This document shows, piece by piece, positions 1-31,736 of a DNA stretch of 34,460 bases. Origin of the DNA: Paludibacteraceae bacterium (GTDB lineage: Bacteria; Bacteroidota; Bacteroidia; Bacteroidales; Paludibacteraceae). Position 1 is the stretch's first letter, and every line of letters starts with the position of its first letter. The stretch covers positions 1 to 34,460 of the forward strand of contig JAKSNT010000014.1 of NCBI GenBank assembly GCA_024399575.1. Direction: 5' to 3'. Made by a program: the position numbers and the translations under genes. Below the pieces are notes generated by a model. The model made no database searches. It was not told the DNA's origin and was given only the letters and a program-made list of their open reading frames with translations.

Positions 1-288
1 ATAAAATATATAGACGATGACAACTGTTTCCGAAAGTTTTTTGAATTCAATTTTTTTGAAACTATAGAAAAGGGGTTCGGGATTTCGTCAGAGATTATGG
101 GAGACACACGACGAGGTGTTTTTTGTCAACTCGATTTTCGCTCGTAAATATACGAAGAAAGTAAGGAGAGACACGAATAATATACGGGCGCAATTTTTTT
201 TGAAAAATTGTTGCACAGGTAAATTATTATTTGTACCTTTGCAGTCGAATTCGAATCAACAAGATTTATCAGTAATTATATTCAGCAA
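1..288. other. non-coding region upstream of rho
   Basis: No convincing gene is visible in these bases. They are AT-rich and stop-rich in all frames. The right part carries the rho promoter, listed separately. Around 145-152 the minus strand reads TATATTTA, a near match to the Bacteroidota -7 element TAnnTTTG. It could drive a gene leaving the window to the left, but the last base is wrong and no such gene can be seen, so this is only a possibility. Confidence 0.5.
211..241 (+). promoter_or_regulatory. Bacteroidota-type promoter for rho
   Basis: TTG at 211-213 (-33 element) is followed after 20 nt by TACCTTTG at 234-241 (-7 element), matching the primary sigma factor consensus of Bacteroidota (TTTG, 19-21 nt, TAnnTTTG). 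Transcription would start near 248, about 40 nt before the rho ATG. Confidence 0.75.
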
Positions 289-1731
289 ATGAAAAAAGTT
301 TCAAACGAAATCATGGATGATAAACTGGGTGAAAAAGCATCTGTGAATGAAAATGCAAAGAAGAGGAAGGTTAAGCGCGAAAGAGTTAAGAAAGACCAAG
401 TAAGTAACGAAAAATCAGAAAACAAAAAAGTTTCGAGAAGGAAAAAAATGCCGAGTGAACAGAACGTTCAGGTAATTCCTATAATTGACGACATACCAGT
501 GACACAAGATATGCCTGAAATACCTGAAGTGCCGCCTATGATTCAGGATATGCCTGCGGTACCTGACACGTCTGCAATGCCCGAAATTCCATTGGTGGAT
601 GAAAGTATGTTCGAGGACCGCGAAGGCGTGTTCGAGTTGGTGCAGGACCAGGGCTTCGGTTTTGTCAGATCTGCAGAATTCAATTTCCTTGCCTCAGACG
701 ATGACTGCTACATGGCAGTGCCTGAAGTGAAAAGATACCGACTCAAGACTGGCGATTACGTGAAAGTGCAAATCGACAAGAGCCGCCAATCGAGATATGC
801 CGCTGTAAGCCACGTATATTCAATAAATTTCAAGAAGCCTGAAGAGGTCAGGACACGAGTGCCTTTTGAAAGGCTTGTCCCTATTTTCCCTAACGAGAAA
901 TTCAACCTGATTGATGACAAGCATTTGGGCGAAAACCTCTCTAACCGAATAGTTGACCTCTTCTCGCCTATCGGCAAGGGTCAGCGTGGTCTCATCGTAG
1001 CTCAGCCAAAGACAGGCAAGACCATGTTGCTTAAGAGCATAGCCAATGCTATAAAGAAGCACAACCCAGAGGTATATATGATAATCCTGCTCATAGATGA
1101 ACGTCCCGAAGAGGTGACCGACATGAAAAGAGCTGTCAAGGATACTGTCGTCGTGTCGTCAACTTTCGACGAATCGGCTGAACATCACATCAAGGTTTCG
1201 CAGATGGTCTATGAACATTCACGACGGATGGTGGAATGCGGGCATGATGTGGTAATCCTCATGGACTCGTTGACGAGACTTGCGAGAGCATACAACACGG
1301 TGGAACCTTCGTCGGGCAAAGTGCTGTCGGGAGGTGTCGATCCGAGAGCTCTCTACCGGCCTAAACAGTTCTTCGGAGCTGCAAGAAACGTCGAGAACGG
1401 CGGCTCGCTCACCATCATAGCCACTGCCCTGATCGAGACAGGCTCGAAGATGGACGACTTCATTTTCGAGGAGTTCAAGGGAACAGGCAACATGGAGTTG
1501 CAACTCAACAGAATCTTGGCAAACAGAAGGATATTCCCTGCCGTTGACCTCGCAGCTTCATCGACAAGACGCGACGACCTGTTGCTGCCGCCACTGACGT
1601 TGAAGAACATGTGGGGACTGAGAAGCATGCTTTCGACAATGAATCCTGCTGAAGCAATGAACCTCGTCCTGCAGCAGATGGACCTTTACAAAACAAACGA
1701 GAAATTCATAGAAAACATTAACAAGGGATGA
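289..1731 (+). CDS. rho: transcription termination factor Rho
   Basis: Rho is a hexameric RNA-dependent ATPase/translocase that ends transcription at Rho-dependent sites. Residues about 113-175 form the cold-shock-like RNA-binding domain (GVFELVQDQGFGFVRS). The Walker A motif GLIVAQPKTGKT lies at about 234-245. Walker B VVILMDSLTRLARAYN and the Rho signature SGGVDPRALYRPKQFFGAAR follow. The 480 residues exceed the roughly 420 of E. coli Rho. The excess is an N-terminal extension of about 105 residues, first Lys/Arg-rich and then Pro/Glu/Met-rich with repeated DMPxxP-like units, probably disordered. Extended Rho N-termini are known in Bacteroidota. A good promoter lies just upstream. The stop codon overlaps the def start as ATGA, which suggests coupled translation. 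Confidence 0.97.
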   Translation: MKKVSNEIMDDKLGEKASVNENAKKRKVKRERVKKDQVSNEKSENKKVSRRKKMPSEQNVQVIPIIDDIPVTQDMPEIPEVPPMIQDMPAVPDTSAMPEIPLVDESMFEDREGVFELVQDQGFGFVRSAEFNFLASDDDCYMAVPEVKRYRLKTGDYVKVQIDKSRQSRYAAVSHVYSINFKKPEEVRTRVPFERLVPIFPNEKFNLIDDKHLGENLSNRIVDLFSPIGKGQRGLIVAQPKTGKTMLLKSIANAIKKHNPEVYMIILLIDERPEEVTDMKRAVKDTVVVSSTFDESAEHHIKVSQMVYEHSRRMVECGHDVVILMDSLTRLARAYNTVEPSSGKVLSGGVDPRALYRPKQFFGAARNVENGGSLTIIATALIETGSKMDDFIFEEFKGTGNMELQLNRILANRRIFPAVDLAASSTRRDDLLLPPLTLKNMWGLRSMLSTMNPAEAMNLVLQQMDLYKTNEKFIENINKG

Positions 1732-2273
1732 TATTACCAATATACACATTAGGACAGTCTGTGCTGAGACATGAGACTGAGGAGGTGACTGAAGACTACC
1801 CTGAACTCGGGGCATTGATTGACAATATGTTCCAAACTATGTACCACGCCGAGGGTATAGGACTCGCAGCACCACAGGTGGGATTGTCGCTCAGACTGTT
1901 CGTGGTTGATGGGACAGTACTGAAAGAAGACATGCCAGACATGATAGAAGGAAAGAGGGTGTTCATCAACCCCGAAATCACCGATGAGAGCGAAGAGGAA
2001 GTCTCATACGAAGAGGGATGTCTGTCAGTTCCAGGAATTCACGAAAAGGTGAAGAGACCGAAGAGGATAACAATACACTACTTCGATGAGAACTGGAACG
2101 AACACGAAGATACGTTCGACGGATTCTTCGCCAGAATGCTGCAGCACGAATACGACCATTTAGAGGGACACGTATTCACCGACCACATCTCGCCTATAAG
2201 AAAACAGATGATTTCGTCACGCTTAGGCAAGATAGCCAAAGGCAAGGTGAACGTCAGTTACAAGACAAAATGA
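1728..2273 (+). CDS. def: peptide deformylase
   Basis: This cytoplasmic metalloenzyme removes the N-formyl group from the initiator methionine of new proteins. All three family motifs are visible: EGIGLAAPQVG (residues about 42-52), EEGCLSVPG (around 95-103, supplying the metal-binding Cys), and QHEYDHLEG with metal ligands H140 and H144 and catalytic E141. The length of 181 residues is normal for the family. The start codon overlaps the rho stop by 4 nt, and folB begins 3 nt after the stop, so def appears to be the middle gene of a rho-def-folB transcript. Confidence 0.97.
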   Translation: MILPIYTLGQSVLRHETEEVTEDYPELGALIDNMFQTMYHAEGIGLAAPQVGLSLRLFVVDGTVLKEDMPDMIEGKRVFINPEITDESEEEVSYEEGCLSVPGIHEKVKRPKRITIHYFDENWNEHEDTFDGFFARMLQHEYDHLEGHVFTDHISPIRKQMISSRLGKIAKGKVNVSYKTK

Positions 2274-2276
2274 GCA

Positions 2277-2618
2277 ATGGAGATACTGGTAGAAGGCATC
2301 GAGTTGTGGGGATATCACGGAGTCTATGAAGAGGAAAACCGGATAGGCGGGAAATACACCGTTGACGTAAGGTTGAAAGTGGCTGACAACTTTGGTGAGG
2401 ACGACAGGATTGAGAGCACCGTAAACTACGAGACGGTTTACGGAATCGTAAGGCAGGAGATGGAAAAACGGTCGAAACTGATAGAGGACGTGGCACGGAG
2501 GATAGCCAAGGAAATCAAGGCTATGAAAGGGGTCGAAGGAGCGGAAGTCGCCGTATATAAATACAACCCAGCAATGGGCGGTAAGGTGTGGAGGACAGGC
2601 GTGAAGATTGAGATATAA
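2277..2618 (+). CDS. folB: dihydroneopterin aldolase
   Basis: FolB converts 7,8-dihydroneopterin to 6-hydroxymethyl-dihydropterin and glycolaldehyde in tetrahydrofolate synthesis. The protein has the family's N-terminal signature GYHGVYEEE (residues about 13-21), the central VNYETVYGIV segment, SKLIEDVARRIA, and the C-terminal YKYNPAMGG stretch that carries the catalytic lysine region. The 113 residues fit the family, which is about 115-125 and forms a cytoplasmic octamer. It follows def by 3 nt. The next gene starts 33 nt downstream and belongs to an unrelated cassette. I see no terminator in that gap, so read-through into the cassette is possible. Confidence 0.93.
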   Translation: MEILVEGIELWGYHGVYEEENRIGGKYTVDVRLKVADNFGEDDRIESTVNYETVYGIVRQEMEKRSKLIEDVARRIAKEIKAMKGVEGAEVAVYKYNPAMGGKVWRTGVKIEI

Positions 2619-2651
2619 AATTATGCATAACAATTCATAAACAAGGCAACC

Positions 2652-4424
2652 ATGTCAGATTATGTTTTCAGCGATTGGAAAAAATCGCTTGAGGATTTCC
2701 AGAACTGCGTAGAAAAGAACCTGGAAGAGGTGAGAAAGGAAAAAGCCGAAGTGCAAAGGCTGAAAGCCGAGATTTTCAGTCTCGTCGAGAGCGGACATTA
2801 CGTGAGGGATGACCATAAAATAATTGTATCGGCACCTGAAATCGTGATAGGCAACGTCGATAAGGACGGAACACTGAAATCTGGCTGTTTCTCGAAAGTG
2901 ACTATAAGGGCAAATCGCGTGGACATCGAAGGAACAGGGAGTCCTGATATAGGTGGGGCGATAGTGAACCGTGCTGCAAGCATCAGGAACATTGCCGTGG
3001 ACCCAGGTCCCGATGGTGAAGAAAACGTAGTCTGCAAGAGAAGCGAGATAATCAGTCAGGCTAAAGGCATAGTGCTGAACAGCTACGATGAAGAGGGCTG
3101 TTTCCATACCTTGGCTGGCTGCGGCGGCTCGGGAATAAAGATTGCTTCTGATTCGACAGTCGCAATCAAGGCGATAAAGGGGAATGAGACCCTGAAAAAG
3201 TCGATTGATGATAGGAAGAGCAATCTGAACACTTTGAAAGGCAATCTCAAGCAGGAAGCAAGCAACGCAAAGAAAACACTCACAGACATAATCGACAAGC
3301 TCGAAGAGATTTTGACTGAGCGCGACAAACTGAACGAAGACGAAATATCAGTAAGACTGAATATTGAGGAAATCATCGAGAAGCACCGCAGTTTCGAACA
3401 TGAATTGCCTGCACTTTATGCAGCGATGAACACATATACCAGCTCTGTGGCAAGACTTGCCGAGGCAAACAGACAGATAAGCGAGCTTGACAAACAGGGT
3501 CAGGAGGTGGACAAGGCGAAAGGCGATTTCAAGACCAAGAGCACCGAGACAATGGTCAGCATCATAGGTGAAACCATCTCCAACATATCTGCCGATGGTG
3601 ACGGAAACCTCAGAGACAACGATGAGGCAGGATTCTCGGTGCAGGCTAAGCATTCGTCGTTCATGGCATACGACGACAAGAGCGCACTTATGCCGAAAGG
3701 CTCATTCAACGTTGGGGCGGAGAATATAAACCTGAACACTTCGAACGGCAACGTCAAGGATGAGAAAAACGCCGAATACAAGGCTGACGGGTCAGTCAAC
3801 ATCGTCACCAAGCAGATGAACATCGAGGGTGTGGATTACGACCTGAAAAACGAAAAAATAGAAGAGAACAACATCGCCAAGGACGGACAGCTCAACATCA
3901 GAATCGAGAGCATCGACGTCAGGAGCACAGACAAGGATGGAAAGGCGACAGGTGCAATAAAACTCAACGCAAAGGAAATTGAAATAAAAGCTAAAGACAC
4001 CGACAAGGATAAGAAGAGCGACAAAGAGTTGGCAAAAGAGGGCAAGATAACCATCACCGCCGAGAAAATGTATGAAGGCGAAGAAAAGTCGCTCAGGATA
4101 GAGAAACACGCAAAATGGGCAGGAATCATAGGCGAGGAGGTCGGAATATTCGCCAAGAAAACTGCTGAAATCCAGCAGCAGGGAGCGCTCGTGCAACTCG
4201 ATGGAGGAAACCTCACCGAAGGTGGCAGCGCTGTCAAGATTTGCGGTGATACGACCATAGGAGGCAAAGCCGATATCAAGGGCGATGTCACTGCTCCGAA
4301 GATTACCGGCAAGAACATCGAGGCTTCAAGCTCGTTCAAGTCAACCAACATAAGCGACGGAATAGCAGTGCCGGCACCTGCTGCTCCAGAGAAGGCAAAT
4401 GCAAAACTTAAGGAAAAGGAATAA
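2652..4424 (+). CDS. beta-rich/coiled-coil protein of the VgrG cassette
   Basis: I do not recognise a named family. Residues about 1-50 are charged and helical. Residues about 56-178 and 315-575 consist of short alternating hydrophobic strands of the kind IEIKAKD, KITITAEKM and INLNTSNGNV, resembling the C-terminal beta-prism of VgrG spikes. Residues about 179-300 are rich in Lys/Glu/Leu and look like a long coiled coil. The end is Pro/Ala/Lys-rich. No signal peptide or membrane segment is visible, so it is predicted cytoplasmic or carried by the apparatus. It starts the cassette and is followed by four genes at 4-7 bp gaps. By inference it is a fibre, a spike extension or a scaffold used with the three VgrG proteins. 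No catalytic motif is seen. Confidence 0.6.
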   Translation: MSDYVFSDWKKSLEDFQNCVEKNLEEVRKEKAEVQRLKAEIFSLVESGHYVRDDHKIIVSAPEIVIGNVDKDGTLKSGCFSKVTIRANRVDIEGTGSPDIGGAIVNRAASIRNIAVDPGPDGEENVVCKRSEIISQAKGIVLNSYDEEGCFHTLAGCGGSGIKIASDSTVAIKAIKGNETLKKSIDDRKSNLNTLKGNLKQEASNAKKTLTDIIDKLEEILTERDKLNEDEISVRLNIEEIIEKHRSFEHELPALYAAMNTYTSSVARLAEANRQISELDKQGQEVDKAKGDFKTKSTETMVSIIGETISNISADGDGNLRDNDEAGFSVQAKHSSFMAYDDKSALMPKGSFNVGAENINLNTSNGNVKDEKNAEYKADGSVNIVTKQMNIEGVDYDLKNEKIEENNIAKDGQLNIRIESIDVRSTDKDGKATGAIKLNAKEIEIKAKDTDKDKKSDKELAKEGKITITAEKMYEGEEKSLRIEKHAKWAGIIGEEVGIFAKKTAEIQQQGALVQLDGGNLTEGGSAVKICGDTTIGGKADIKGDVTAPKITGKNIEASSSFKSTNISDGIAVPAPAAPEKANAKLKEKE

Positions 4425-4428
4425 AGTC

Positions 4429-5121
4429 ATGAATAAACAGGTAAGCAACAAACTCGCGGAGTTGAAATCGAAGTTAGGTGGATACGTGATGCTGATGCAA
4501 TACAGGTATATGAACATCTGCGTCAAGGCGGAGCCAATATCCATGCTGTCAATATCAGTTGATATTGATGGAACAAGCAGAAGTATTGAGGACGTGGCAC
4601 TCATAGTGATGGATCAGGAAGACGAGAAGAAGATGAAGGTGATAGCCAAGGATATGGAGGACATTCCGCAGATTGGCAAGGGAATACTCTTCACCCATCC
4701 TGAATTCAAGCAGGAAGTCAAGGAACTGCTGATGGATGGACAGGAGAGCAAAGACGTGCCTATGGACCAGAAAATGTTCTACATAGAGCTGACAATGCCC
4801 GAAATGGACAAGAAACGTCACGAAGACATGACAAAACTCATCAAGACACTGCACGGCGAATGCTCCACCAAAATGGAGGCTACTCATAAGTTGATAGCTG
4901 CCGAAGTGGCTGCCATGCTGCTGACAGGTGGAACACCCGAAGAGGCTGAGGAGGCTGCAAAAGCCATGGACGATGTCTATAACTGGCATAAGGACCTCAT
5001 GGAGAAATACACCCAGGCTAAGACAGATGAGATAGACAACGCATTTGCAAATAACCAGAGCAAAGAAAAAGAAGAAGACAATGACAATGACAACAACATT
5101 ACACAATCAATGAAACTATAA
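4429..5121 (+). CDS. hypothetical protein between cassette scaffold and VgrG1
   Basis: The family is not recognised. The product is 230 residues if translated from the ATG at 4429, chosen because it lies 4 nt after the preceding stop with AAAAGGA before it. An in-frame ATG at 4399 would add 10 residues but overlap the upstream gene. The N-terminal half is mixed alpha/beta and includes DIDGTSRSIEDVA and GKGILFTHPEF. The second half is helical (TKLIKTLHGECSTKMEATHK; TPEEAEEAAKAMDDVYN), and the tail is Lys/Glu/Asp/Asn-rich. There is no signal peptide or membrane segment. Its place directly before three VgrG genes suggests an adaptor, chaperone or structural partner. That is inference from position only. 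Confidence 0.6.
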   Translation: MNKQVSNKLAELKSKLGGYVMLMQYRYMNICVKAEPISMLSISVDIDGTSRSIEDVALIVMDQEDEKKMKVIAKDMEDIPQIGKGILFTHPEFKQEVKELLMDGQESKDVPMDQKMFYIELTMPEMDKKRHEDMTKLIKTLHGECSTKMEATHKLIAAEVAAMLLTGGTPEEAEEAAKAMDDVYNWHKDLMEKYTQAKTDEIDNAFANNQSKEKEEDNDNDNNITQSMKL

Positions 5122-5127
5122 CTCAAG

Positions 5128-8100
5128 ATGGCCACCTGCGAATTACTGATAAAAATTGGCAAAGACAAAACGACATACTCATTCAGCACAGGTAAGAAAA
5201 CCGAGTTTGTCGTAAAGGACGCAAATGATAAAGACATTAAGCTGAATGGTACAATGACGAAACTCGATGTCGTCAAGGTCATGGGAAAGCCAAACAGCAT
5301 AGAGGCAAACATTGACATCACTGGCAATACGCTACCTATAATGGCAGAATTGAACAGTGCGTTCCAAAACGTTGTCGTCTCTCTCAAATTTACATCTGTC
5401 AAAACATATACCGGATTCACAGTTTTCAATGTCGGAATCACTACCAAATACAAGGCCGGGGAAGTTAAAGGCATGAAAGCAAGACTTGACATTTACAGCA
5501 ACGACAAATTTGCAGACCTCACATACACATCGAAAGCATTCACAGCCAAGAAATTGTTCGGTGACATAGTAGAACCTAAAATAAAAGAAATAGAAAATAG
5601 CCAGTTCAATGAAAAAATAAAACCGAAAGTCGATGAAATACAGAAGGATATTGATAAAAAACAGTCCGAACTGGATAAAGAAAAAGATGAAGAAAAAAGA
5701 AAAAAACTCCAAAAAGAAATAGACAACCTCGTTAATAAAAAAGACAGCCTCAAAAAAGATTTACTCATCAATCCGATAAAGGGAAGCATAAACCTCAAGG
5801 ACGACCAAGACCTGATACACCCATTTCTCGTGCAGTACGAAGAAACATTCTACTCGTTTCTGCTCAGGACAGTCAACAGGTGTGGGGGATACCTTTATTT
5901 CGAAGATGGAAAACTGCATATCGGACATGCTGGAGGAACAGAAAGAAAAATAGATGAACTTTTCACTACAAATGAGATAACAAAGATTGGAAATTGCGAC
6001 AATACGGTTTTCAGCACGGCGGCAAATAAAAAAGATACTGACTATCAGGAAGGCGCATACGAAAACGAATTGTCGCTGAGAAGCCCAAAAGATGCATCCG
6101 ACAAGGAGGCGCTGAGTGCATACGTGACCGAAATAGGTAAAGACGATTACCTGCAGGACATTGAAAAGGATAAATACGATTCGGCAAACGACCAAGTGAA
6201 CAAAGACCAGTCGATAAGCATGCCAGTGACCAATCTGCTCTGTTCGCAAAATCTTATGGAGTTCGTAACCAAGACAGCGGCAGACGAAATTAAGACATGG
6301 GCATCATCAGCATCGTTTGCTGCGGCAAACAACAAGAAATTCAACAAAAAATATTTCGAAAATATCACTGATAAGTCTAAATACAGCTCAGATAAAAAAA
6401 CATACAGAGAGTTCGGGACATACACTACAGGCAAGGAGTGGAATGCAAATCTTTACAATAAGTTCTATTCCTGCATAAGGAGAGTGCAGGATACACCAGA
6501 CAGACGCAAAATAGCCATAAGCCACACGGGAGAATACAAAGAAATAATGTTAGGCGATACGGCAAAAATTGACAACAAAACGAATTACATAGTGACCGGT
6601 GTACGCTATACCGAGACGTACAGCAGCTTGTTAGGTGCAAAACAGAAACAGACAGTAGAACTCACAGAAGAGGTAAATATTAAAAATAGCGCAGGGAAAA
6701 ATGAAAATTATTTCATAGCCGAAAGGATGTGCGAACCGATAAGACGCGTCGAGGGAGGCATGAGAGCTGTCGTCACTGACAACATGGACCCTATCTGGGC
6801 AGGAAGGGTGAGGGCAAGGTTTGATTGGGGAGACGGGGATAATGCCACACCATGGATAGCCGTAAGGTCGCTGTCGTCAAAGGGTGAATGTGGAGTGTAT
6901 TTTCAGCCGGAGGAAAAAGATACAGTGATGTTGGGTTTCGAAGGGGGAAACATCGAACGTCCGTATGTAGAGGGTGCACTGTTCACAAGCGATGTCAGCC
7001 CAAGATGGGGAGGAAGGACCTACGATGATGTCATTTCGTGCAGGAACGGTCACAGCATAAAATTCAACACGATAGCCACTGCTGGGCAAGTTGGCGGAGT
7101 TTTCGGTTTCCCAGGTGCTATATTCACGTCACTCTTGTCTGTCCCTGTTCCGAATGACAACAATTTGATAAAAACGACAGGAGGTATCGAGATAGGCGAC
7201 GACAATGGCTGGTATCAGATAGCAATGTCGTCGAACAACAGGTCGGTCACGATACAGTCGATGTTCGGTAATGTAGATATCAACGCATTCACAGGAATAA
7301 AGATTTCGGCACCTAACGGGTCTGTAAAGATATCCGGACAGAACGTGAACATCACTGCAGGCGACAAACTCACGATGACCTCAGGAAAGAACATCATGGA
7401 GAGTATCGGTGGAGCAGGATTTGGATTTCAGGCAGGAAAGGCAATGGCTTCGTTTCTGGAAAGCAAGACGGTTGACATGAACCTGCTCAGACACATATTG
7501 GACGCATTCATACGTCCTGTGGATGGCTCTATGGAGATTGTTTCGTTCAACAATATATTGATGGAGAGCGGAGGAAGCCATGTCAATATCAATCCGGAAA
7601 TAAAACCCGATATAGATAAAATGCTCGACATTACGGCTGGTGAAGCCCAAAAGTTACATTCAACAGACAGAAAAAATAGCAACATCTTCATGCGACTAAT
7701 TTATTGGCTGTATGATATGCGCGATTATGAGTTCACTGAAACGATACTTTACTACAACATCAAACTGTTGAAAAACCTGATGTCGGCAATCGTCGATGAA
7801 ACATTCAGTATAAAAACAAGTGATGTTGATAACAACGTGATAGACGAAGGTGCAATAAGGGAAGCGTTCAAAAATGAATTGAGTGCAAAAATTGATAGCG
7901 TAATAAATGGAAAAGATTTAAGTACCTCGTTAGTTGGCAAAATAAAGAATCTGGATTTCCAAATTCGATTTGAAAATGTGGAAACAGAAATAGAAGAAGA
8001 AGGAAAATACAAAAATGCATCTATTGACAATAAAAATTTATGGGTACGGCATGTGCTGTATGAATACCTGCAGGAACTGAGGAGCAAACATTCAATAATA

Positions 8101-8439
8101 GAGGGAAGGGCAGACAGCGAGCCTTGGATGGATGTACAGAGATGGCACGACTATGTCGATGAACTGACTGCAAACAACACCCAATTCAAGTCGTGGTACT
8201 CGCGAATATTAGCTACAGCGGTTTCTGACTTTAGCAAAGGGCTGGACTCTGTAAAAAAATTCTTCACCTGGAGCAAGGAATGGTCGAACACTACGAACAA
8301 GGGCAATCTGTATATGACCGACGAACCTGGATTGACATACAAGATAAGCGATTTGAATTCGGACAAGGAAGATCTGAAAGGAGACTTGATTTCCGACCCA
8401 GAATACGCATGGAGAAACGAATTGAAAAACTTCAAATGA
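5128..8439 (+). CDS. vgrG: VgrG-like type VI spike protein 1 (1103 aa)
   Basis: The gp27-like part contains HPFLVQYEETFYSFLLRTVN followed by a YLYFEDGKL stretch (about 231-262), the usual VgrG signature of a QY-E-F-R segment leading to YFE. The gp5-like OB-fold at about 541-625 shows DNMDPIWAGRVRARFDW, TPWIAV and GGNIERPYVEGALF. After NGHSIKF (about 641-647) comes a hydrophobic segment, then a beta-prism (about 687-757) with strands such as VDINAFTGIKISAP and VNITAGDKLTM. The last 345 residues are mostly helical and of unknown function. Residues 148-212 are a Lys/Glu coiled-coil-like insertion missing from the two paralogues. By family knowledge, VgrG trimers form the puncturing tip of type VI systems. 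No secretion signal is seen. It is far longer than a basic VgrG of about 600 residues. Confidence 0.85.
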   Translation: MATCELLIKIGKDKTTYSFSTGKKTEFVVKDANDKDIKLNGTMTKLDVVKVMGKPNSIEANIDITGNTLPIMAELNSAFQNVVVSLKFTSVKTYTGFTVFNVGITTKYKAGEVKGMKARLDIYSNDKFADLTYTSKAFTAKKLFGDIVEPKIKEIENSQFNEKIKPKVDEIQKDIDKKQSELDKEKDEEKRKKLQKEIDNLVNKKDSLKKDLLINPIKGSINLKDDQDLIHPFLVQYEETFYSFLLRTVNRCGGYLYFEDGKLHIGHAGGTERKIDELFTTNEITKIGNCDNTVFSTAANKKDTDYQEGAYENELSLRSPKDASDKEALSAYVTEIGKDDYLQDIEKDKYDSANDQVNKDQSISMPVTNLLCSQNLMEFVTKTAADEIKTWASSASFAAANNKKFNKKYFENITDKSKYSSDKKTYREFGTYTTGKEWNANLYNKFYSCIRRVQDTPDRRKIAISHTGEYKEIMLGDTAKIDNKTNYIVTGVRYTETYSSLLGAKQKQTVELTEEVNIKNSAGKNENYFIAERMCEPIRRVEGGMRAVVTDNMDPIWAGRVRARFDWGDGDNATPWIAVRSLSSKGECGVYFQPEEKDTVMLGFEGGNIERPYVEGALFTSDVSPRWGGRTYDDVISCRNGHSIKFNTIATAGQVGGVFGFPGAIFTSLLSVPVPNDNNLIKTTGGIEIGDDNGWYQIAMSSNNRSVTIQSMFGNVDINAFTGIKISAPNGSVKISGQNVNITAGDKLTMTSGKNIMESIGGAGFGFQAGKAMASFLESKTVDMNLLRHILDAFIRPVDGSMEIVSFNNILMESGGSHVNINPEIKPDIDKMLDITAGEAQKLHSTDRKNSNIFMRLIYWLYDMRDYEFTETILYYNIKLLKNLMSAIVDETFSIKTSDVDNNVIDEGAIREAFKNELSAKIDSVINGKDLSTSLVGKIKNLDFQIRFENVETEIEEEGKYKNASIDNKNLWVRHVLYEYLQELRSKHSIIEGRADSEPWMDVQRWHDYVDELTANNTQFKSWYSRILATAVSDFSKGLDSVKKFFTWSKEWSNTTNKGNLYMTDEPGLTYKISDLNSDKEDLKGDLISDPEYAWRNELKNFK

Positions 8440-8443
8440 GAAA

Positions 8444-11400
8444 ATGGCAAGTTACAATATAAAAAATGGGACAGATACAGTAGCCGATTTCACCATTGAG
8501 ACTATCGGACTGAAAAAGACTATATGCGGCATATCGTGGTGCAAGATAACAGGAACGTCTAAAAATGGTTTGAAAGCTGATGATTTCAAAGGCAAAGACA
8601 TTTCACTTGTATTTTGCGATGAAGAAAAAAAAGAAAGCACCATATTCTCAAGATTCAAGGTGAGCAGCATAGAAACAGGCAAGAATGTGACAATCAATAT
8701 GTACAGTCCGGAAGCTGCGCTGGCAAGGGAGAAAGAATCAAAATCGTACACGGCTGTAAACTTTGCAAGCGGCATATTCGAGCCGACAATGAATGATGCT
8801 GGAATAAAAAATGATGTCAAGAGCAACAATACAATATTCGGCACTATAGGAGATGTCAAAAAAGAGTACATGAGTGCATATCTGGTGCAATTCAACGAGA
8901 CAAAGTATGATTTCCTGATGCGTACGACCAACAGGAGCGGTGTGCCGATGTATTTCGAAAACGGACAAATGATATTTGGGAAAATAGGTACAGAATATTC
9001 AATAGAAGACACATCCAAAGAAGACTACAACGATGTATATTTCGGAAATGACGACACAATCGGAAACAGGGACGACAAGACATATTCGACAGAGATAACC
9101 GACAACGAATTTTACGAAAGCATAGAAAAGGGGAAATACAACGAGTACTCCAAGGAACGCGAGACTGGCGACAGAGAATGGATGGTTGCCCTGCGTTCGC
9201 TCAACGAACACAGTTCGCTGATGGACGGAGTGCTGGAAGCGGGAGTCAAGGTCGCACAGACAGCATCGGCATATAAGACAAACGTCAACAAGGAGAACAA
9301 AAAATATGACGAAGGTTATTTCAAAGACGCAGACATAAAAGACGCAAAAGAGCGACAATACAACACGAATAAGAATTCATATACCCAGTTTGCAAACTAC
9401 AGCGAAAAGTCATCCGAGTCACGTTTTTCGGACGATCACTACAAAAGCGTAAGGAAAGCGCAGCAGGAGATGGTAAAGAAATGCATCTGGGTAAGATACA
9501 AAACTTCGAAAGAAAAATATTTCTTAGGCGACATCCTGAAAATAAATTCCTGGGGAGGGGAATACATAGTGGTTCGTGTGGAGATGACTGCAAGCGTAAA
9601 GAATAATTTATGGGACAACACATGGCAGTATATGCTGATGGCAAAGTGCTCATACGGTACAGGCGACCAATCATACGTTGTCACGCCAGCAGCAGACCTC
9701 CTTGCAGCAAGCGAAAGAGAGAATACACTCCTTGAGAAATATGAGGATATGGAGATATGGGATGGCAGCACATACGACGAAGTGAGGAGATTCAACGGGG
9801 TGCAGCAGGCGACAATAGATGACAACCAAGACCCGAAGAGATTAGGCAGGGTGAGGGTGAAATACGGTTGGCAAGACGGAAATAGCGCTGCAACACCATG
9901 GCTGAAGGTCCTTACCCCTTTGGCCACGGTAAACGGCGGAATATGTTTCGTGCCTCAGAAAGGTGACAAATGTCTTGTAGGGTACAGGAACGGCAATATC
10001 GAACAGCCATATATAGCCGGTGCAACATTCACAAAGGACTCAACACCAAAATGGGGTGCGAGAGGATGCGAGAACATAATATCATGTAAGAATGGACACA
10101 GCATACGGTTCTGGACACCAAAAGATTTTCTTGCAAGCATAGCAAGCGCCATTCCTATGTTATCATGGGTGACAGACTTTATACCAGGATTTGCTCACGC
10201 TGATACACCAGATCCAACAAAAGACTCAGGCGGAAGGATGTCGTATATCGGGGGAATAGATATATCGGACGATGCATGTCTATACGAGATTTCTGCATCA
10301 TCTACGTCAAGAAGTGTAACGATATCCTCAAACCTCGGCAAGGTTGGCGTTAATGCCTTTTCGGCAATTGACATCTCGGCACCTGTAGGAGACATCAACA
10401 TAACTGGAAAGAACGTAAGCATTATTGCAGGAAACAACCTGAAAGTCAGGGCAGGTGAAGAATCGGGTAAAGATTCCGACTCGATTATGTCGATGATAGG
10501 TGCATCCATAAAACCTGCAATAGTACAGCAGGTGTTGTTCTCTGACCTCATATTGGATTTAAGACCATTGGTGGCATTGAAAAACCTGATATACAAACCA
10601 AGCGATGGCAATATGTGTTTTTCGTCAGAACAATTCATAACCATGGAAGCTGGTGATGGAAAGGTCAGTCTGCCAAGCAAGGACTGCACGATAGGCAACA
10701 CCAGCGACAGAGAAGCGAAGACAGATTGCATATTCTATATTGCAATGATAGTTCAGGAAATGGACAGGATTTTCGAGAACTCGTTGCTGAAGATTTCCAC
10801 AGGAGAAATATTAATCAAAGATGCTATAGAGGAAGTTGCCGAATTTATCAAGCAAAACGAAAGCAAAAGTAAAAATAAAAATTCTACGAGTTTATACCAT
10901 GATCTTGTAAAGAAATTGAATCAGCCAATGAATTTATTTCCTGTTGATGTCAATACACTAATAAGCGAGTTGGGAATGGACTGGGTAAGACCCCAAAGGC
11001 CATCTTCATCGACTAAATACTATGCAAAGACAGGACGTGTAAAATCAGTCTATTCGCATTATCAAAGCCTAAAGGAATACCTGACTATATTCAGAAATAA
11101 AATGTTTGCAACAACCGAAAACGACACATCAAATATCAACAAGATGATAGAACAATGCAAGGAACATAATAAAGAAGCAGACATTGCATTTGATAAATAC
11201 ATATTCATTGGTAGAGTAAATGGCTCTATTGATAAAGCGACAGGTAATAAAATAGGGAATATAGAATTTGTTGCTGATAATAAAATTGTAAAGATTAAAG
11301 AACCAATTTCGATTAACAGAAATGATTTCGTTGAACTTAAGAGAGAATGCATTTATAATTTCATCAAGAATAATAAAAAATTAATCTTGGGTTCATCAGA

Positions 11401-11710
11401 TTATAAATTTTCAGATTCTATCAATAACAACGACGGATGGAATGATTTTATTACCAAGTTCAGTGATGAATTATCCGGTAAAATATGGGATGACAATGAT
11501 AAAAAGACCCCTTTTATTGCTAAAATAGAAGAAACTATGATGAATAACATCCTTATTGACGACAACTTAAAGGACAAATGGGTAAGCCCAAGGGTGGGAG
11601 GAATCTACTATTCAGACAAGGAAAATGTCACTCATAAATTGGGATTGAGAGAGGCAAGTATAAATACTCCTGCCGAACTTATGAGACAGATATTAACCAC
11701 AATAAGATGA
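8444..11710 (+). CDS. vgrG: VgrG-like type VI spike protein 2 (1088 aa)
   Basis: Paralogue of the preceding gene, starting 4 nt after its stop. The gp27-like core holds AYLVQFNETKYDFLMRTTNR and MYFENGQM (about 145-175). The OB-fold is at about 450-535 (DDNQDPKRLGRVRVKYGW, TPWLKV, GNIEQPYIAGATF), followed by NGHSIRF and a hydrophobic stretch with PMLSWVTDFIPGFA. The beta-prism is at about 603-673 (VGVNAFSAIDISAP, INITGKNVSIIAG). About 400 C-terminal residues form a diverged helical extension that ends in a segment resembling the end of VgrG1 (GGIYYSDKENVTHKLGL). The 3' third is visibly richer in A and T than the core. The function of the extension is unknown. It may carry cargo or act as a docking domain, but no enzyme motif was recognised. 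Confidence 0.85.
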   Translation: MASYNIKNGTDTVADFTIETIGLKKTICGISWCKITGTSKNGLKADDFKGKDISLVFCDEEKKESTIFSRFKVSSIETGKNVTINMYSPEAALAREKESKSYTAVNFASGIFEPTMNDAGIKNDVKSNNTIFGTIGDVKKEYMSAYLVQFNETKYDFLMRTTNRSGVPMYFENGQMIFGKIGTEYSIEDTSKEDYNDVYFGNDDTIGNRDDKTYSTEITDNEFYESIEKGKYNEYSKERETGDREWMVALRSLNEHSSLMDGVLEAGVKVAQTASAYKTNVNKENKKYDEGYFKDADIKDAKERQYNTNKNSYTQFANYSEKSSESRFSDDHYKSVRKAQQEMVKKCIWVRYKTSKEKYFLGDILKINSWGGEYIVVRVEMTASVKNNLWDNTWQYMLMAKCSYGTGDQSYVVTPAADLLAASERENTLLEKYEDMEIWDGSTYDEVRRFNGVQQATIDDNQDPKRLGRVRVKYGWQDGNSAATPWLKVLTPLATVNGGICFVPQKGDKCLVGYRNGNIEQPYIAGATFTKDSTPKWGARGCENIISCKNGHSIRFWTPKDFLASIASAIPMLSWVTDFIPGFAHADTPDPTKDSGGRMSYIGGIDISDDACLYEISASSTSRSVTISSNLGKVGVNAFSAIDISAPVGDINITGKNVSIIAGNNLKVRAGEESGKDSDSIMSMIGASIKPAIVQQVLFSDLILDLRPLVALKNLIYKPSDGNMCFSSEQFITMEAGDGKVSLPSKDCTIGNTSDREAKTDCIFYIAMIVQEMDRIFENSLLKISTGEILIKDAIEEVAEFIKQNESKSKNKNSTSLYHDLVKKLNQPMNLFPVDVNTLISELGMDWVRPQRPSSSTKYYAKTGRVKSVYSHYQSLKEYLTIFRNKMFATTENDTSNINKMIEQCKEHNKEADIAFDKYIFIGRVNGSIDKATGNKIGNIEFVADNKIVKIKEPISINRNDFVELKRECIYNFIKNNKKLILGSSDYKFSDSINNNDGWNDFITKFSDELSGKIWDDNDKKTPFIAKIEETMMNNILIDDNLKDKWVSPRVGGIYYSDKENVTHKLGLREASINTPAELMRQILTTIR

Positions 11711-11717
11711 TACGACC

Positions 11718-14447
11718 ATGAGCACTTACGCAGTAAAAGTTGATTCAAAAGAATATATATTGGGGCTCAGAAAAACGACAAGCAACATTTTGTTGCAGAA
11801 AATTGTCATTAATAGGCATGTGAGCGACCACGGCAAAGCGATATTGGAGTTCACAATAGCAAATACCGATAAACCCCAAAAAGGAGATGAAATCATAGAA
11901 AAGGACAAATCGGTATCAATCTATTATGGTGATTTATCAATAGATAAGGACCCAAAAAAAGATCCGGTATTTATTGAAAAAGATAAAATAATCGACTGCT
12001 ATTATCTCTTTAAGGTCAGAAAACGAATAATAAAGAACAAGACAAACTGCACTCTGGCTGTTGAAGTGGAACTGCGAAGTGCTGATATGTATATAGACAA
12101 GGAGAAAGGGAATAGTTGCTATACCGCAGGAAAACTGCTGAATGATATAATAAATCCGGCATGTGGAACTACTGGCGTGAAAGTCGCTGTAAACTCTGGA
12201 TTGAAACAACTGTTGAGTTACGAGGGTTCAGGAACCCCATATACAGAGCTCAGACACCCATACCTCGTGCGGCACAACGAGACGATGTATGAGTTCATCA
12301 GGCGAACAGCCAACAAAAGCGGTGAATATCTGTATTTCGAAGGAGGTAAACTCTGTTTGGGACTGTCAAGCCATCCAATCGGCGACTGGTCAACATCTGG
12401 CGAGATAGAAGTAAAGAAATGGGATAGCATAAGCACTGAATACACAAGCGAAACATTATATAGCGACAGCAGTAACGGAAGTGGAATCACAAGAGACGAG
12501 TACAGCAACACGATAGAAAAGGACAAGTACGATTCCGAATCAGATGAAAGAGGTGTTCTCACGCCTTTCTACTATGAATTTGTCAATACAATCACCCATG
12601 CCGAAACAATAGGAGCAATGATAGTAGGCTTGCTGGCGACTGAGTATAAATATTTCGGAATACCAGGCGCAATATCAACCGTATTGGGATATGCCAAAGC
12701 AGCCAATAAAAAATACAATTCAAATTATTTTCCTGACAAAATTGAGGAAAACCGCAAAGATCAGTACGGAAGCAGCAACAATAAATTCACACAGTTCGCT
12801 ACAAACTCCGAAAAATATTCCGGCAAGGTAAACGAGATATTAAATAAAGGCGTAACTTCGACATATTACAATAATATTGCGCAGATGCAGGCTGCGGTAA
12901 GCAGGGAACTGCTCGTAGCAGAAGCGACAGGAAAGCACAACCATATAGCTTTGGGCAAGGCGTTCAGATGGGGAGATAAAAGCTGGATATCAGTTGGCTC
13001 TGAAATAGAAGTGGTTTTAAACAATCAGACCAGCACTGAGTTCAAGATGAAAGAAAAAGCGATCTTTGCACCAATGCTTGCAATTTCAGGAACAAAACAG
13101 GAAATTGCCGTAGCGCCAGTATGCTGCAAGCATGTGCTGAGAGTCAGAGGTGGTGACACAGCAAAAGTAGAAGATAGTGCAGACCCTCAGCGTATGGGAC
13201 GAGTAAGGGTGAAATTCCCATGGTCAGATACGGCAACTCCGTGGATACCAAACCTGTCGCTTCATGCAACCAAAGGCGGAGGGACACACTTCATGCCACA
13301 GAAGGGAGACACAGTCATGATAGAATATGAAGAGGGAAATGTCGAGAAGCCTTACATAGCTGGCAGCCTGTTCACGAGCGATCGTCCTCCTAAATACGGT
13401 ACAAGGAAATATCAAGGGGTGATATCCAACCATCACGGACATTGCATAAGATTTTTCAGTCCTGACAATACTCTGAACTACTTGAACGGAGCATTCCCCG
13501 CTGTAGGATTCATCAGAGGATTTGCACCTCAGGTGATGGGCAACGCAGCAGGGAAAGACAGTCCAATAGGCAAAGCATTGGGGGGAATAGAGTTCACTGA
13601 CGAATATGGGCTGTTCAAGGTGGCAGCGTCAAGCGACAATAGGGAAGTCGTTATAGATTCGCCAGTCGGGTCTGTATCAATCAATGCTTATACTGGCATA
13701 AACATCAATGCACCAAACGGTGATGTGGTGATTGAAGGGATGGATGTAGAGATAAGGGCAAGAAATGCTGTGAATATCAATTCTGGTGCTGACACGAAAA
13801 AAGCTGGTGTCGGTACACTAAAGAATCTGACTGACGCATTGTCAAAACCAATACTTGATTCTTTTGACATGCCACTTCTTAGGTCATTAGTAGTTCAGAT
13901 TGCAACGTTATTAAGATTTTTCAGGGCAGAAAATAACATTGCATTGAAATCGGCTGGAGATATGAAAATAGAAGTGGGAAAATGGAAAAAAGCAAAAAGC
14001 GGAACTTTTGCTGACGGCTTCAAAGGTGTATGGAAAAATGGCATGTGGTCAAAGGTGTTTAATTCGGAGCGTTACGATTTGACGAAAATGTTTGGAAGAG
14101 CTGAACCCTCAAGAATTTCTTTCAAAACATACAATGCAGAAGGCGTACAGACTGAAAAATTTAACAAAAATCCTATCGACAACAATAATGAAGATGACAA
14201 TAACATGGAAGAATTAAATGAAAAATCTAATATTTTAATATTTGATATAAAAGATAATTTTGACAATGGAAGTAGAAATGACAAAAATATCAATAATGAA
14301 GAAGATAATAAATCTATAAAGAAGAATAACTCTGAAAAAGATAAAAACGAAATGGGAGAAAAAGATAACCCGATATTTAAACAACATGAATTGATAATAC
14401 AAAATAAAAATATAAATGATAATATAATTTCAAATGAAATAGAATGA
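11718..14447 (+). CDS. vgrG: VgrG-like type VI spike protein 3 (909 aa)
   Basis: Third paralogue, 7 nt after VgrG2 and last in the cassette. The gp27-like core has HPYLVRHNETMYEFIRRTAN and YLYFEGGKL (about 180-210). The OB-fold is at about 474-555 (SADPQRMGRVRVKFPW, TPWIPNL, GNVEKPYIAGSLF). It is followed by HGHCIRF, a hydrophobic segment and a beta-prism at about 622-693 (VSINAYTGININAP). A DMPLLRSL segment after the prism matches the other two copies, but the long helical extension is replaced. The last 90 or so residues (from about 818) are low-complexity Asn/Asp/Lys/Glu encoded by very AT-rich DNA. This could be a flexible linker, a diverging tail or a truncated form. A terminator follows the stop. 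Confidence 0.84.
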   Translation: MSTYAVKVDSKEYILGLRKTTSNILLQKIVINRHVSDHGKAILEFTIANTDKPQKGDEIIEKDKSVSIYYGDLSIDKDPKKDPVFIEKDKIIDCYYLFKVRKRIIKNKTNCTLAVEVELRSADMYIDKEKGNSCYTAGKLLNDIINPACGTTGVKVAVNSGLKQLLSYEGSGTPYTELRHPYLVRHNETMYEFIRRTANKSGEYLYFEGGKLCLGLSSHPIGDWSTSGEIEVKKWDSISTEYTSETLYSDSSNGSGITRDEYSNTIEKDKYDSESDERGVLTPFYYEFVNTITHAETIGAMIVGLLATEYKYFGIPGAISTVLGYAKAANKKYNSNYFPDKIEENRKDQYGSSNNKFTQFATNSEKYSGKVNEILNKGVTSTYYNNIAQMQAAVSRELLVAEATGKHNHIALGKAFRWGDKSWISVGSEIEVVLNNQTSTEFKMKEKAIFAPMLAISGTKQEIAVAPVCCKHVLRVRGGDTAKVEDSADPQRMGRVRVKFPWSDTATPWIPNLSLHATKGGGTHFMPQKGDTVMIEYEEGNVEKPYIAGSLFTSDRPPKYGTRKYQGVISNHHGHCIRFFSPDNTLNYLNGAFPAVGFIRGFAPQVMGNAAGKDSPIGKALGGIEFTDEYGLFKVAASSDNREVVIDSPVGSVSINAYTGININAPNGDVVIEGMDVEIRARNAVNINSGADTKKAGVGTLKNLTDALSKPILDSFDMPLLRSLVVQIATLLRFFRAENNIALKSAGDMKIEVGKWKKAKSGTFADGFKGVWKNGMWSKVFNSERYDLTKMFGRAEPSRISFKTYNAEGVQTEKFNKNPIDNNNEDDNNMEELNEKSNILIFDIKDNFDNGSRNDKNINNEEDNKSIKKNNSEKDKNEMGEKDNPIFKQHELIIQNKNINDNIISNEIE

Positions 14448-14470: not shown

Positions 14471-14520
14471 CGAGAATCCCTTCCACTTATTTGATGGAAG
14501 GGATTCTCTCGTTGATTTTT
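14471..14520. terminator. bidirectional hairpin terminator
   Basis: The left arm CGAGAATCCCTTCCA (14471-14485) pairs with TGGAAGGGATTCTCTCG (14495-14511) apart from a 2-nt bulge, with a 9-nt loop. A T-rich stretch follows on the plus strand and an A-run precedes it. It therefore can end both the VgrG cassette and the convergent ridA transcript. Confidence 0.88.
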
Positions 14521-14531: not shown

Positions 14532-14909
14532 TCATTTGCCTGCAATAGTCTCAATCTCGACCAAAGCACCCATAGGGAGTGATTTTACAGCAAATGCAGA
14601 ACGTGCTGGACAATCAGAGAGGTAATACTGTTTATAGACCTCGTTCATGGCACCGAAATCAGCAATGTCGCTGAGGAACACAGTAGTCTTGACTACATCC
14701 TGGAAATCGTAACCAGCCTCGTTGAGAATGGCACGGACGTTGCGGAGCGACTGGTGAGTCTGCTCAGCGACACCACCTTCAGCAAATTTGCCTGTAGCAG
14801 GGTCGATTGGAAGTTGACCGGAAATGAAAAGCATTCCGTTGACCTGCGTAGCCTGGCTGTATGGACCGATTGCTGCAGGAGCATTTTTTGTTGCAATGAT
14901 TTTCTTCAT
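14532..14909 (-). CDS. ridA: RidA/YjgF/Rid-family reactive intermediate deaminase
   Basis: RidA hydrolyses reactive enamine/imine intermediates (for example 2-aminoacrylate) released by PLP enzymes. It is a small cytoplasmic trimer. The 125 residues match the family. The N-terminus contains APAAIGPYSQA, then LFISGQLPIDPATG, and the C-terminal signature CPARSAF and LVEIE supplies R103 and E118, equivalent to the active-site Arg and Glu of E. coli RidA. It lies 13 nt downstream of the TPR gene on the minus strand and is the last gene of that apparent operon, facing the VgrG cassette. A PLP aminotransferase is nearby but on the opposite strand. Confidence 0.95.
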   Translation of the reverse strand: MKKIIATKNAPAAIGPYSQATQVNGMLFISGQLPIDPATGKFAEGGVAEQTHQSLRNVRAILNEAGYDFQDVVKTTVFLSDIADFGAMNEVYKQYYLSDCPARSAFAVKSLPMGALVEIETIAGK

Positions 14910-18884: not shown

Positions 18885-18909
18885 ATTTCAATCGTAATAA
18901 CAAAAGAAT

Positions 18910-18946
18910 GAGGTCCACAGATATCAAGTCTGTGGACCTCTTTTTA
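18910..18946 (+). terminator. intrinsic terminator after the aminotransferase gene
   Basis: GAGGTCCACAGA (18910-18921) pairs perfectly with TCTGTGGACCTC (18929-18940) around a 7-nt loop, and TTTTT follows at 18941-18945. On the other strand it may also stop the convergent protease transcript, whose gene ends at 18964. Confidence 0.9.
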
Positions 18947-18963
18947 CTATAGTAGTGGTCAAA

Positions 18964-26386: not shown

Positions 26387-27091
26387 ATGAAAAAATTAGC
26401 AACGTTGCTTTTGACAGCAGCAATCAGCATGACAATGTTCGGACAGGACCAGAAAGACCTGTCTAAATGTGCAGTAGTCAAGATACTCACGAACTACGGC
26501 ACGATGAAAGTGGCACTTTACAACGAGACTCCACAACACAGGGACAACTTCATAAAACTCGTTAAGAGCAATTTCTACGAGGATGTGCTGTTCCACAGGG
26601 TAATTAAGGAATTCATGATACAGGCGGGCGACCCTCAGTCCAAGGACTCTACGTTCACAGGCAGACTTGGCGGTGGGGGAGTAGGATATACGATACCTGC
26701 GGAATTCGTGTCTGAACTGTTTCACAAAAAAGGTGCACTTGCCGCAGCAAGACAAGGCGATGACGTCAATCCCGAAAAAGCATCAAGCGGCTGTCAGTTC
26801 TATATCGTAACAGGACGTCAGTTTGATCGTAAAGAGATTGACATGCTCGAACGGAGACTTAAAACTATGTACGACAACCCTGAATTTCATTATAATGAAA
26901 ACCAGAGACTGACCTACATGACTTTCGGAGGTGCACCGCACCTCGACGGGGCATACACAGTCTTCGGAGAACTGATTGACGGGTTTGAGGTCTTGGACTC
27001 TATAGAAAGTGTAAAGACTGACCCAACCGACAGACCTGTCGAACCAGTCAGGATAATCTCGATGAGCATAATCAAAAACTACAGGAAATGA
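26387..27091 (+). CDS. periplasmic cyclophilin-type peptidyl-prolyl isomerase
   Basis: This enzyme catalyses cis-trans isomerisation of prolyl bonds during protein folding. The N-terminus is a signal peptide (about residues 1-20), so it acts in the periplasm or is membrane-associated. Cyclophilin signatures are YEDVLFHRVIKEFMIQAGDP with catalytic R71, GGGGVGYTIPAEF, SGCQFYIVTG, and APHLDGAYTVFGELIDG. Between the last two is a 40-residue insertion (about 145-185) common to the Bacteroidota forms. The length is 234 residues. The stop overlaps the ftsE start by 4 nt. Confidence 0.94.
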   Translation: MKKLATLLLTAAISMTMFGQDQKDLSKCAVVKILTNYGTMKVALYNETPQHRDNFIKLVKSNFYEDVLFHRVIKEFMIQAGDPQSKDSTFTGRLGGGGVGYTIPAEFVSELFHKKGALAAARQGDDVNPEKASSGCQFYIVTGRQFDRKEIDMLERRLKTMYDNPEFHYNENQRLTYMTFGGAPHLDGAYTVFGELIDGFEVLDSIESVKTDPTDRPVEPVRIISMSIIKNYRK

Positions 27092-27759
27092 GCATATTGG
27101 AATATAATAATGTTGAAATAAAGCATTCAGAAATGACTGTGCTGAAAGATGTTACATTCAACATAGAGAAGGGTGAGTTTATCTATTTCTGCGGCAAGGT
27201 GGGCTCAGGCAAGAGTTCTGTAATGAAGACAATGTATGCAGAATTGCCTATTACATCTGGCGAAGCGAGGATATTCGATTTCGATTTGAGAAAGTTGAAA
27301 AGGTCAGACATACCGATGCTCAGACGGCAGATAGGAATAGTGTTCCAGGATTTCAAATTGCTGTCCGACAGAAGTGTCAGGGACAATCTTGAATTTGTAC
27401 TGAAAGCCACAGGATGGAAAAACAGGCATCAGATAGACGAACAGATTAAATTAGTGCTTGAGACAGTCGGAATGTCAACAAAAGGTTATAAATGGCCACA
27501 CCAGCTGTCGGGAGGAGAGCAACAGCGAATAGTTATTGCAAGAGCCTTGCTAAACTCGCCTCAACTCATCATAGCCGACGAACCTACTGGCAATCTCGAC
27601 CCTGAGACAGGCGATGAAATCATGCAACTGCTACACTCAATTTCGGCTGGAGGGACGGCTGTTGTCATGGCTACGCACAACGAACGTTTTGTAAACAGAT
27701 ACCCTGCCAAGACATATTACTGCAACTCTACAGACCAGACATTCACACTCAAGGCATGA
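27088..27759 (+). CDS. ftsE: cell division ATP-binding protein FtsE
   Basis: FtsE is the cytoplasmic ATPase that partners the membrane protein FtsX. Together they control peptidoglycan hydrolases at the division site. Walker A is GKVGSGKSS (residues 36-44), followed by the Q-loop GIVFQDFKLL, signature LSGGEQQRI (about 140-148), Walker B LIIADEPTGNLD (about 163-174) and the H-loop ATHNERF. The size of 223 residues and the VGSGKSS form of the P-loop fit Bacteroidota FtsE better than lipoprotein exporters such as LolD, though this cannot be excluded. No FtsX gene is next to it, which fits the separated location usual in this phylum. It overlaps both neighbours by 4 nt. Confidence 0.88.
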   Translation: MSILEYNNVEIKHSEMTVLKDVTFNIEKGEFIYFCGKVGSGKSSVMKTMYAELPITSGEARIFDFDLRKLKRSDIPMLRRQIGIVFQDFKLLSDRSVRDNLEFVLKATGWKNRHQIDEQIKLVLETVGMSTKGYKWPHQLSGGEQQRIVIARALLNSPQLIIADEPTGNLDPETGDEIMQLLHSISAGGTAVVMATHNERFVNRYPAKTYYCNSTDQTFTLKA

Positions 27760-28730: not shown

Positions 28731-28745
28731 ATTACTGGCAAAGCA

Positions 28746-28775: not shown

Positions 28776-28797
28776 CGGAATTATTTGTAATAAAGTG

Positions 28798-31733: not shown

Positions 31734-31736
31734 GTT

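Follow-up and report, generated by a model that had tools for sequence, protein, structure and literature searches.

A spike-gene cassette in a Paludibacteraceae genome probably serves a type VI secretion system linked to a ubiquitin-like gene set

Five genes between folB and ridA

The window analyzed here, a 34,460-nt contig stretch from the genome of a Paludibacteraceae bacterium (G000), carries five consecutive genes encoding two accessory proteins, P1 and P2, and three VgrG paralogues (Table 1). As the first-pass annotation had described, the five share one orientation with gaps of 4 to 7 bp; its ORFs hold apart from the start of P2. The ORF list gives 590, 240, 1103, 1088, and 909 aa in gene order, and P2 shortens from 240 to 230 aa when it is started at ATG 4429, most likely the true start since its relatives begin there (gaps are then 4, 6, 4, and 7 bp). 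The position between folB and ridA was likewise borne out, with both flanks confirmed by Pfam, and no further type VI gene was found among the window proteins scanned, a set that left out several ORFs at 26387-34347. The minus strand at 18964-21108 encodes a subtilase whose C-terminus carries a Por sorting domain.

Table 1. Features of the window, numbered from its first nucleotide
Feature	Position	Strand	Description
TACCTTTG	234..241	+	Fits the Bacteroidota -7 element; lies ahead of rho
rho	289-1731	+	Identity confirmed by Pfam
def	1728-2273	+	Named from its sequence only
folB	2277-2618	+	Left flank; identity confirmed by Pfam
P1	2652..4424	+	590 aa; candidate spike-module accessory protein; no Pfam match above cut-off
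P2	4429..5121	+	230 aa; ribosome-recycling-factor-like protein
VgrG-A	5128..8439	+	1103 aa; PF04717, 51.7 bits; DUF2345, 25.5 bits, below cut-off
VgrG-B	8444..11710	+	1088 aa; PF04717, 64.3 bits
VgrG-C	11718..14447	+	909 aa; Asn/Asp-rich tail; PF04717, 62.5 bits
Hairpin, 15 pairs	14472-14508		In the interval between vgrG-C and ridA; minus-strand T-run
ridA	14532..14909	-	Right flank; PF01042, 145 bits; convergent with vgrG-C

Upstream of the cassette, rho and def overlap by 4 bp, def and folB are separated by 3 bp, and folB and P1 by 33 bp. On the plus strand, the motif TAnnTTTG, which we take to be the Bacteroidota -7 element, is absent from 242 to 12945; the sole match before 12946 is the one ahead of rho, which is shared with G116, another species of this genus. 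It is possible that rho-def-folB (289..2618) forms the head of a transcript continuing into the cassette, which would then be read from the rho promoter; the count of the motif in the window (20 matches) is not above the 22 expected by chance. The strong terminator proposed to close the set stood in part: a hairpin far more stable than shuffled sequence (z -6.7) does follow vgrG-C, but since its T-run lies on the minus strand, it best serves ridA.

The three VgrG-like genes called from the letters alone were upheld, as the OB domain (PF04717) scored above its curated cut-off in 3/3, while the hub (PF05954) and DUF2345 models gave matches below cut-off only. In a VgrG homologue from G014, a third species of the genus, PF05954 was above cut-off (41.1 bits). 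The VgrG family profile aligned with canonical T6SSiii VgrG (hhalign 99.9%, E 3.8e-33), and residues 454-556 of VgrG-B matched a solved T6SS VgrG spike (E 2.6e-14). Identity to the G116 orthologues was 74, 74, and 71% for VgrG-A, -B, and -C, dropping to 42-43% at residues 901-1000 of VgrG-A and -B and to just 30% at residues 801-900 of VgrG-C. A C-terminal domain common to VgrG-A, -B, and relatives had been suspected by eye and was discarded after a leave-one-out HMM found nothing. No toxin family was matched above cut-off in any of the five cassette proteins in Pfam and NCBIfam scans.

The first two genes had been listed as unrecognised, which holds for P1 but not for P2. Pfam and NCBIfam scans found no recognised domain in P1. 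The protein is nevertheless conserved, with orthologues in G116 (89% identity), G014 (46%), G131 (40%), and G153 (31%) among 12 genomes searched, and its sequence suggests a coiled-coil-like center, strand-rich stretches, and a conserved C-terminal stretch; in several loci its gene adjoins one for a DUF4280 protein. The idea that P1 is a VgrG relative received no hhalign support (0.1%), and a strand-pattern count of 7 against 2.7 expected was set aside as not diagnostic (32/1000 shuffles scored as high; the three VgrGs, serving as controls, had no excess). Profile comparisons place the P2 family, by contrast, as a relative of ribosome recycling factor (RRF): 7/10 members match the Pfam RRF model (best E 4.5e-15), and the profile of the family, over most of its extent, aligns with solved RRFs (E 3.8e-11). 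The window protein itself falls below the RRF cut-off (19.3 versus 29.7 bits). The ordinary frr of G000 lies on contig C31 (208.7 bits).

A type VI apparatus with a ubiquitin-like set on contig C14

The first-pass annotation had read the cassette as supplying spike and cargo parts to an apparatus whose genes lie elsewhere, or as a variant injection machine, and had proposed a search for TssB/TssC, Hcp, and baseplate genes outside the window. In the G000 assembly (1.66 Mb, 75 contigs, 86% complete), that search led to a single TssC match (PF17541) on contig C14. The C14 locus encodes, in order, a ClpV-like AAA+ protein, TssB, TssC, three TssD/Hcp proteins and a fourth below cut-off, a DUF4280 protein (a PAAR-like tip protein), a ThiF-family E1, a 252-aa protein placed as TssG by position, a 380-aa TssK, gp25/TssE, a 559-aa TssF, a 105-aa ubiquitin-like protein (Ubl), a 172-aa E2, two proteins, p373 (373 aa) and p281 (281 aa), each hydrophobic near its N terminus, and a 789-aa RING-like/FHA membrane protein. 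TssF and TssK were supported by profile comparison with the canonical T6SSiii locus of G068 (hhalign); further support came through G638, whose own TssF is above its Pfam cut-off and whose TssK match is below. The Pfam match of TssB was below cut-off (19.9 bits), and for TssG no Pfam match was found in the C14 protein or two relatives, with hhalign under 1%. In locus L006, four Hcp-type genes stand in a row (4633-6429), and the fourth, a weak TssD match (E 0.011), may differ in role.

No VgrG match was found in the first 20 kb of the C14 locus, and when 12 genomes were searched with VgrG-B, the only matches in G000 were the three window genes. With the sole TssC match on C14 and VgrG matches only in the window, the first of the two suggestions is supported, and the second fits the apparatus found. 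A further vgrG may exist, since the genome is 86% complete and C14 begins about 0.5 kb before clpV.

The membrane complex is where the C14 locus departs from the canonical one. None of TssN, TssO, TssR, or PKD was matched at E 0.05 in 18 proteins of the locus (for ClpV, among the best 25 of 45 matches), whereas the same model library does match all four in the canonical locus of G068. That p373, p281, and the RING/FHA protein are diverged forms of TssO, TssP, or TssR found no hhalign support, in what was a weak test with single sequences and one locus.

The C14 E1 matched PF00899 (ThiF) at E 9.3e-55, and the E1 of a related locus (L018) matched SUMO E1 at E 2.6e-20; the motifs GCGALGNE and CYAC were kept in 12/12 nearer loci, the E1 proteins of distant families standing outside this alignment. 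For Ubl, all rows (15/15) end in DPFPG, and the terminal glycine is also present in 4/4 distant loci. The G000 Ubl alone gave a Rad60-SLD match below cut-off (E 0.0012). A wide Ubl profile matched designed ubiquitin variants (E 8.2e-6), natural di-ubiquitin (1.9e-5, two copies), and natural single ubiquitin (0.0075 or weaker), in each case over the last third only and with the strong polyubiquitin E-values inflated by tandem repeats. A beta-grasp fold is therefore likely on profile evidence.

For E2, the WHPN motif and the following cysteine were invariant in 13/13 full rows (one partial row was left out), and HPN and Cys were kept in 4/4 distant loci. Alone, the G000 E2 gave a Pfam UQ_con match below cut-off (E 2.7e-4). 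Searched against the PDB, a narrow E2 profile ranked an unrelated entry first (0.0021), ahead of E2 enzymes (0.0063), and a wide profile with the distant loci added matched UBE2K (E 2.9e-5). In the 789-aa protein, one hydrophobic stretch is N-terminal and a second lies near residue 364, followed by a RING-like region (match below cut-off), more hydrophobic stretches, and an FHA end (21.1 bits versus a cut-off of 20.7); candidate zinc ligands are kept in 13/13 rows of the family. Pfam found a VWA domain in a stand-alone homologue and in the G638 protein, and not in the C14 protein itself. No JAB protein was found among the C14 locus proteins. In G971 (L132, 5608-7707), the RING/FHA gene has as its neighbor a gene for a 700-aa protein that matches Prok-JAB weakly (E 0.002) and could be a deconjugase.

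Spike-gene placement and distribution of the Ubl-linked loci

The first-pass annotation had also proposed a comparison of the folB-ridA interval among relatives, which showed the cassette in G000 and G116, its absence from that interval in G014 and G097, and vgrG copy numbers of one to three. In G116 the island is identical in order (folB-P1-P2-VgrGA-B-C-ridA), and the type VI locus of this species has DUF4280 followed directly by E1, without vgrG. In G014, P1, DUF4280, P2, and one VgrG lie within the apparatus locus, between the Hcp/PEGA genes and E1, at the place matching the C14 locus, and in G131 two VgrGs and P1 follow the Hcp genes. Relatives thus do not always have these genes inside a type VI locus of a described kind: that of G014 does contain them, in G000 and G116 they are detached, and no published description of such a locus type was found. 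In G014 and G097, ridA and folB are adjacent and in the same orientation rather than convergent, so the arrival of the island went with a rearrangement, and a plain insertion between the two genes was rejected. No ridA match was found in the stretches taken from G044, G083, G066, and G108.

P2 was present in 11 loci, neither P1 nor P2 was found in the 20 kb of L021, and neither was convincingly matched in the four distant-family loci (G638, G766, G830, G971). A PEGA-like gene is present in the spike region of L007 (7328-8149), L021, L022, L025, L027, and L028, and was unmatched in the G000 and G116 loci. In L021, a third and a fourth Hcp-type gene (18895-19828) lie about 3.5 kb beyond the end of the RING/FHA gene, as another displaced piece. 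A phage origin was rejected: matches in 10 phage records were to the OB region alone, no Ubl relative was found in IMG/VR, and the window has no tRNA gene.

The same comparison bears on whether VgrG-A, -B, and -C together make a single obligate heterotrimer instead of three alternative spikes. The three genes have the same order in G000 and G116, and the orthologues (71-74% identical) are far closer than the paralogues inside G000 (29-32%). In the VgrG tree each G000 paralogue groups with its G116 orthologue (support 100/100), so the paralogues split before the two species parted; as one group, the six proteins are weakly supported (73/86, long branches). With one VgrG match in G014 and two in G131, however, such an apparatus does not need a heterotrimer, and we regard an obligate one as rather unlikely.

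A profile search of genome contigs yielded 13 loci, all labelled as Bacteroidales, 10/13 of them with a gut source given and two from one MAG. Wherever the span was covered, the order was E1-TssG?-TssK-TssE-TssF-Ubl-E2-p373, followed by p281 and the RING/FHA protein; p281 was not seen in L021 and L023, and L019, L020, L023, L026, and L029 end at contig ends. Counts that join Ubl and TssC searches take both draws as the same genomes. In the family sample (200 genomes), Ubl was matched in eight, including a weak G036 match (37 residues, E 8.6e-4) dropped as chance, and TssC in 26, of which seven scored 335-355 bits, 16 were full-length at 743-777 bits, and three were fragments. Six of the seven in the lower range have Ubl, the exception being G059, whose Ubl-type TssC lies on a 5.8-kb contig, and none of the other 19 had a strong Ubl match. 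Ubl was found without a TssC match in G097, where the contig begins just before Ubl. In a TssC tree, the seven Ubl-type rows together with G059 stood apart from the 16 canonical rows (100/100, with long branches).

In the order sample (393 genomes), Ubl was matched in five genomes and TssC in 18. In all five Ubl-positive genomes, TssC shares a contig with Ubl at a distance of about 12 kb or less (Fisher 1.1e-7, uncorrected for relatedness), and these genomes represent five families, four of them beyond the source family. In these four (G638, G766, G830, G971), the terminal glycine of Ubl and the E2 motifs are preserved. G638, G971, and G766 also have E1 and the RING/FHA protein (E1 of the last is cut by the stretch end), and neither was seen in G830, whose contig ends a few genes past E2. 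G550, also in this sample, had a middling TssC score and no Ubl match. Its locus (L136, 1047-3108) contains a protein kinase plus FHA gene, with a further weak FHA match, and is perhaps a phospho-control variant.

A proposed licensing mechanism and its place among known systems

Taken together, we consider it probable (about 0.8) that the cassette is a detached spike module of the Ubl-linked T6SS on C14, the only one detected in the genome; as the most likely mechanism, Ubl conjugation would license docking or loading in that system. Sequence shows the gene identities, co-conservation, conserved catalytic signatures, and the differing placement of the spike genes among species; we infer that the machine functions and conjugates Ubl, which kind of protein receives it, and what P1 and P2 do. 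The three VgrG paralogues would form the spike, or alternative spikes, under the DUF4280 tip encoded on C14, with P1 and the RRF-like P2 assisting spike assembly or loading. The place of the unrecognised TssNQOPR anchor would be taken by other envelope proteins, including the RING-like/FHA protein, together with E1, Ubl, and E2. E1 would charge the C-terminal glycine of Ubl and pass Ubl to the E2 cysteine, after which the membrane RING, facing the baseplate, would direct Ubl onto a baseplate, spike, or anchor protein, and this tag would license docking or spike loading at the membrane. We hold more tentatively, at a little below even odds, that a distinct, old Bacteroidales T6SS lineage is built or licensed by E1-E2-RING/FHA conjugation to a baseplate or spike component in place of TssNQOPR and that an RRF-derived protein serves its spike.

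The main rival to the conjugation model is a purely structural replacement, in which Ubl, E1, and E2 act without conjugation and Ubl takes over the baseplate-docking role of the ubiquitin-like TssN domain. A T6SSiii study describes the cytoplasmic domain of TssN as ubiquitin-like and proposes that it docks the baseplate (PMC10781749), and C14 has no TssN match. Against this, the Ubl C-terminal glycine and the E2 HPN and Cys are kept across five families, in addition to the two E1 motifs in the nearer loci, and we judge a role without conjugation quite unlikely.

The Ubl genes could also belong to a separate defence or housekeeping pathway that is merely housed in the type VI locus. In the phylum sample (395 genomes), E2 was matched in three, namely G000 and two genomes of one other genus in the class (G263 and G357), and these two carry an E1-E2-FHA operon (L079-L082) with no match to the type VI profiles used here in 40 kb. 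The G263 operon encodes an nSTAND NTPase, E1, Ubl, E2, JAB, a vWA/FHA membrane protein, and an ion channel, and in the FHA membrane protein of this stand-alone type the RING-like zinc ligands are partly lost. Within the type VI loci, on the other hand, E1 lies between the tip/spike and baseplate genes and Ubl-E2 follows TssF wherever covered (the genes are also together in G638, in another order), and none of the 375 genomes in the order sample that lack a TssC match had a Ubl match, the same draw being assumed. Mere co-housing thus appears improbable; perhaps a stand-alone-type Ubl operon joined a T6SS early in the order. Finally, that P2 and the VgrG C-terminal regions are cargo, with P2 as a recycling-factor mimic jamming target ribosomes, would suit the presence in a spike operon of a divergent RRF relative, in a cell with its own frr, and the faster divergence of those C-terminal regions between G000 and G116. 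Polymorphic effectors, however, differ from P2, a stable partner in its 11 loci, and an immunity gene would not fit in the five-gene cassette, making this decidedly improbable.

Should the preferred reading of a licensed, Ubl-linked apparatus be true, a contractile injection system would own its E1-E2-Ubl-RING pathway, and bacterial Ubl conjugation would gain a directly testable output in sheath assembly and Hcp release. It would also suggest that a T6SS can be anchored by another route where neither TssJLM nor TssNQOPR is recognised, and the spike genes would be separated from their own machine, possibly under a housekeeping promoter. Every ingredient is already known, and the combination was not found in the open-access literature searched: preprints aside, no paper among the matches listed paired a T6SS with an E1/E2/Ubl set, or RRF with a T6SS.

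In Proteobacteria, orphan or auxiliary vgrG islands place spike genes off the main cluster, and vgrG copy number is variable. The present cassette is alike in both respects, but differs in going with a Ubl-linked T6SS, in its RRF-like partner, and in having no recognised effector/immunity pair. Control through FHA domains also has a precedent in the PpkA/Fha pathway, a post-translational regulation of T6SS. The related locus of G550 has kinase and FHA genes, and the Ubl set stands where G550 has the kinase.

In the Tvp complexes, accessory proteins are encoded with VgrG and PAAR, and TvpC is a VgrG-like beta-prism protein (PMC13373197). The likeness lies in dedicated accessories beside VgrG and a PAAR protein, and P1 might, as a guess by analogy, play a role like that of TvpC, a VgrG-like accessory in VgrG-PAAR assembly. 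As a difference, the Pfam matches of P1 and P2 do not include DUF2169 (TvpA), and P2 is RRF-like. The E1, E2, and FHA protein match by profile those of bacterial Ubl operons, as represented by Iyer et al. 2006 (PMC1779556) and by G263 and G357. Those operons have no nearby type VI matches, and JAB is present in that of G263, whereas the C14 set lies inside a type VI locus and JAB among such loci was matched in G971 only, weakly.

With T6SSiii of the Bacteroides fragilis type, the C14 locus and its cassette have in common TssC, Hcp/TssD, a ClpV-like protein, TssB, TssE, TssF, TssK, VgrG, and DUF4280. In contrast to T6SSiii, the C14 locus has no TssN, TssO, or TssR matches, its TssC falls in a separate clade, and it adds E1, Ubl, E2, and the RING-like/FHA protein. 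Its gene content thus suggests a system that works like a T6SS and that, by its membrane complex, would not be an ordinary T6SSiii.
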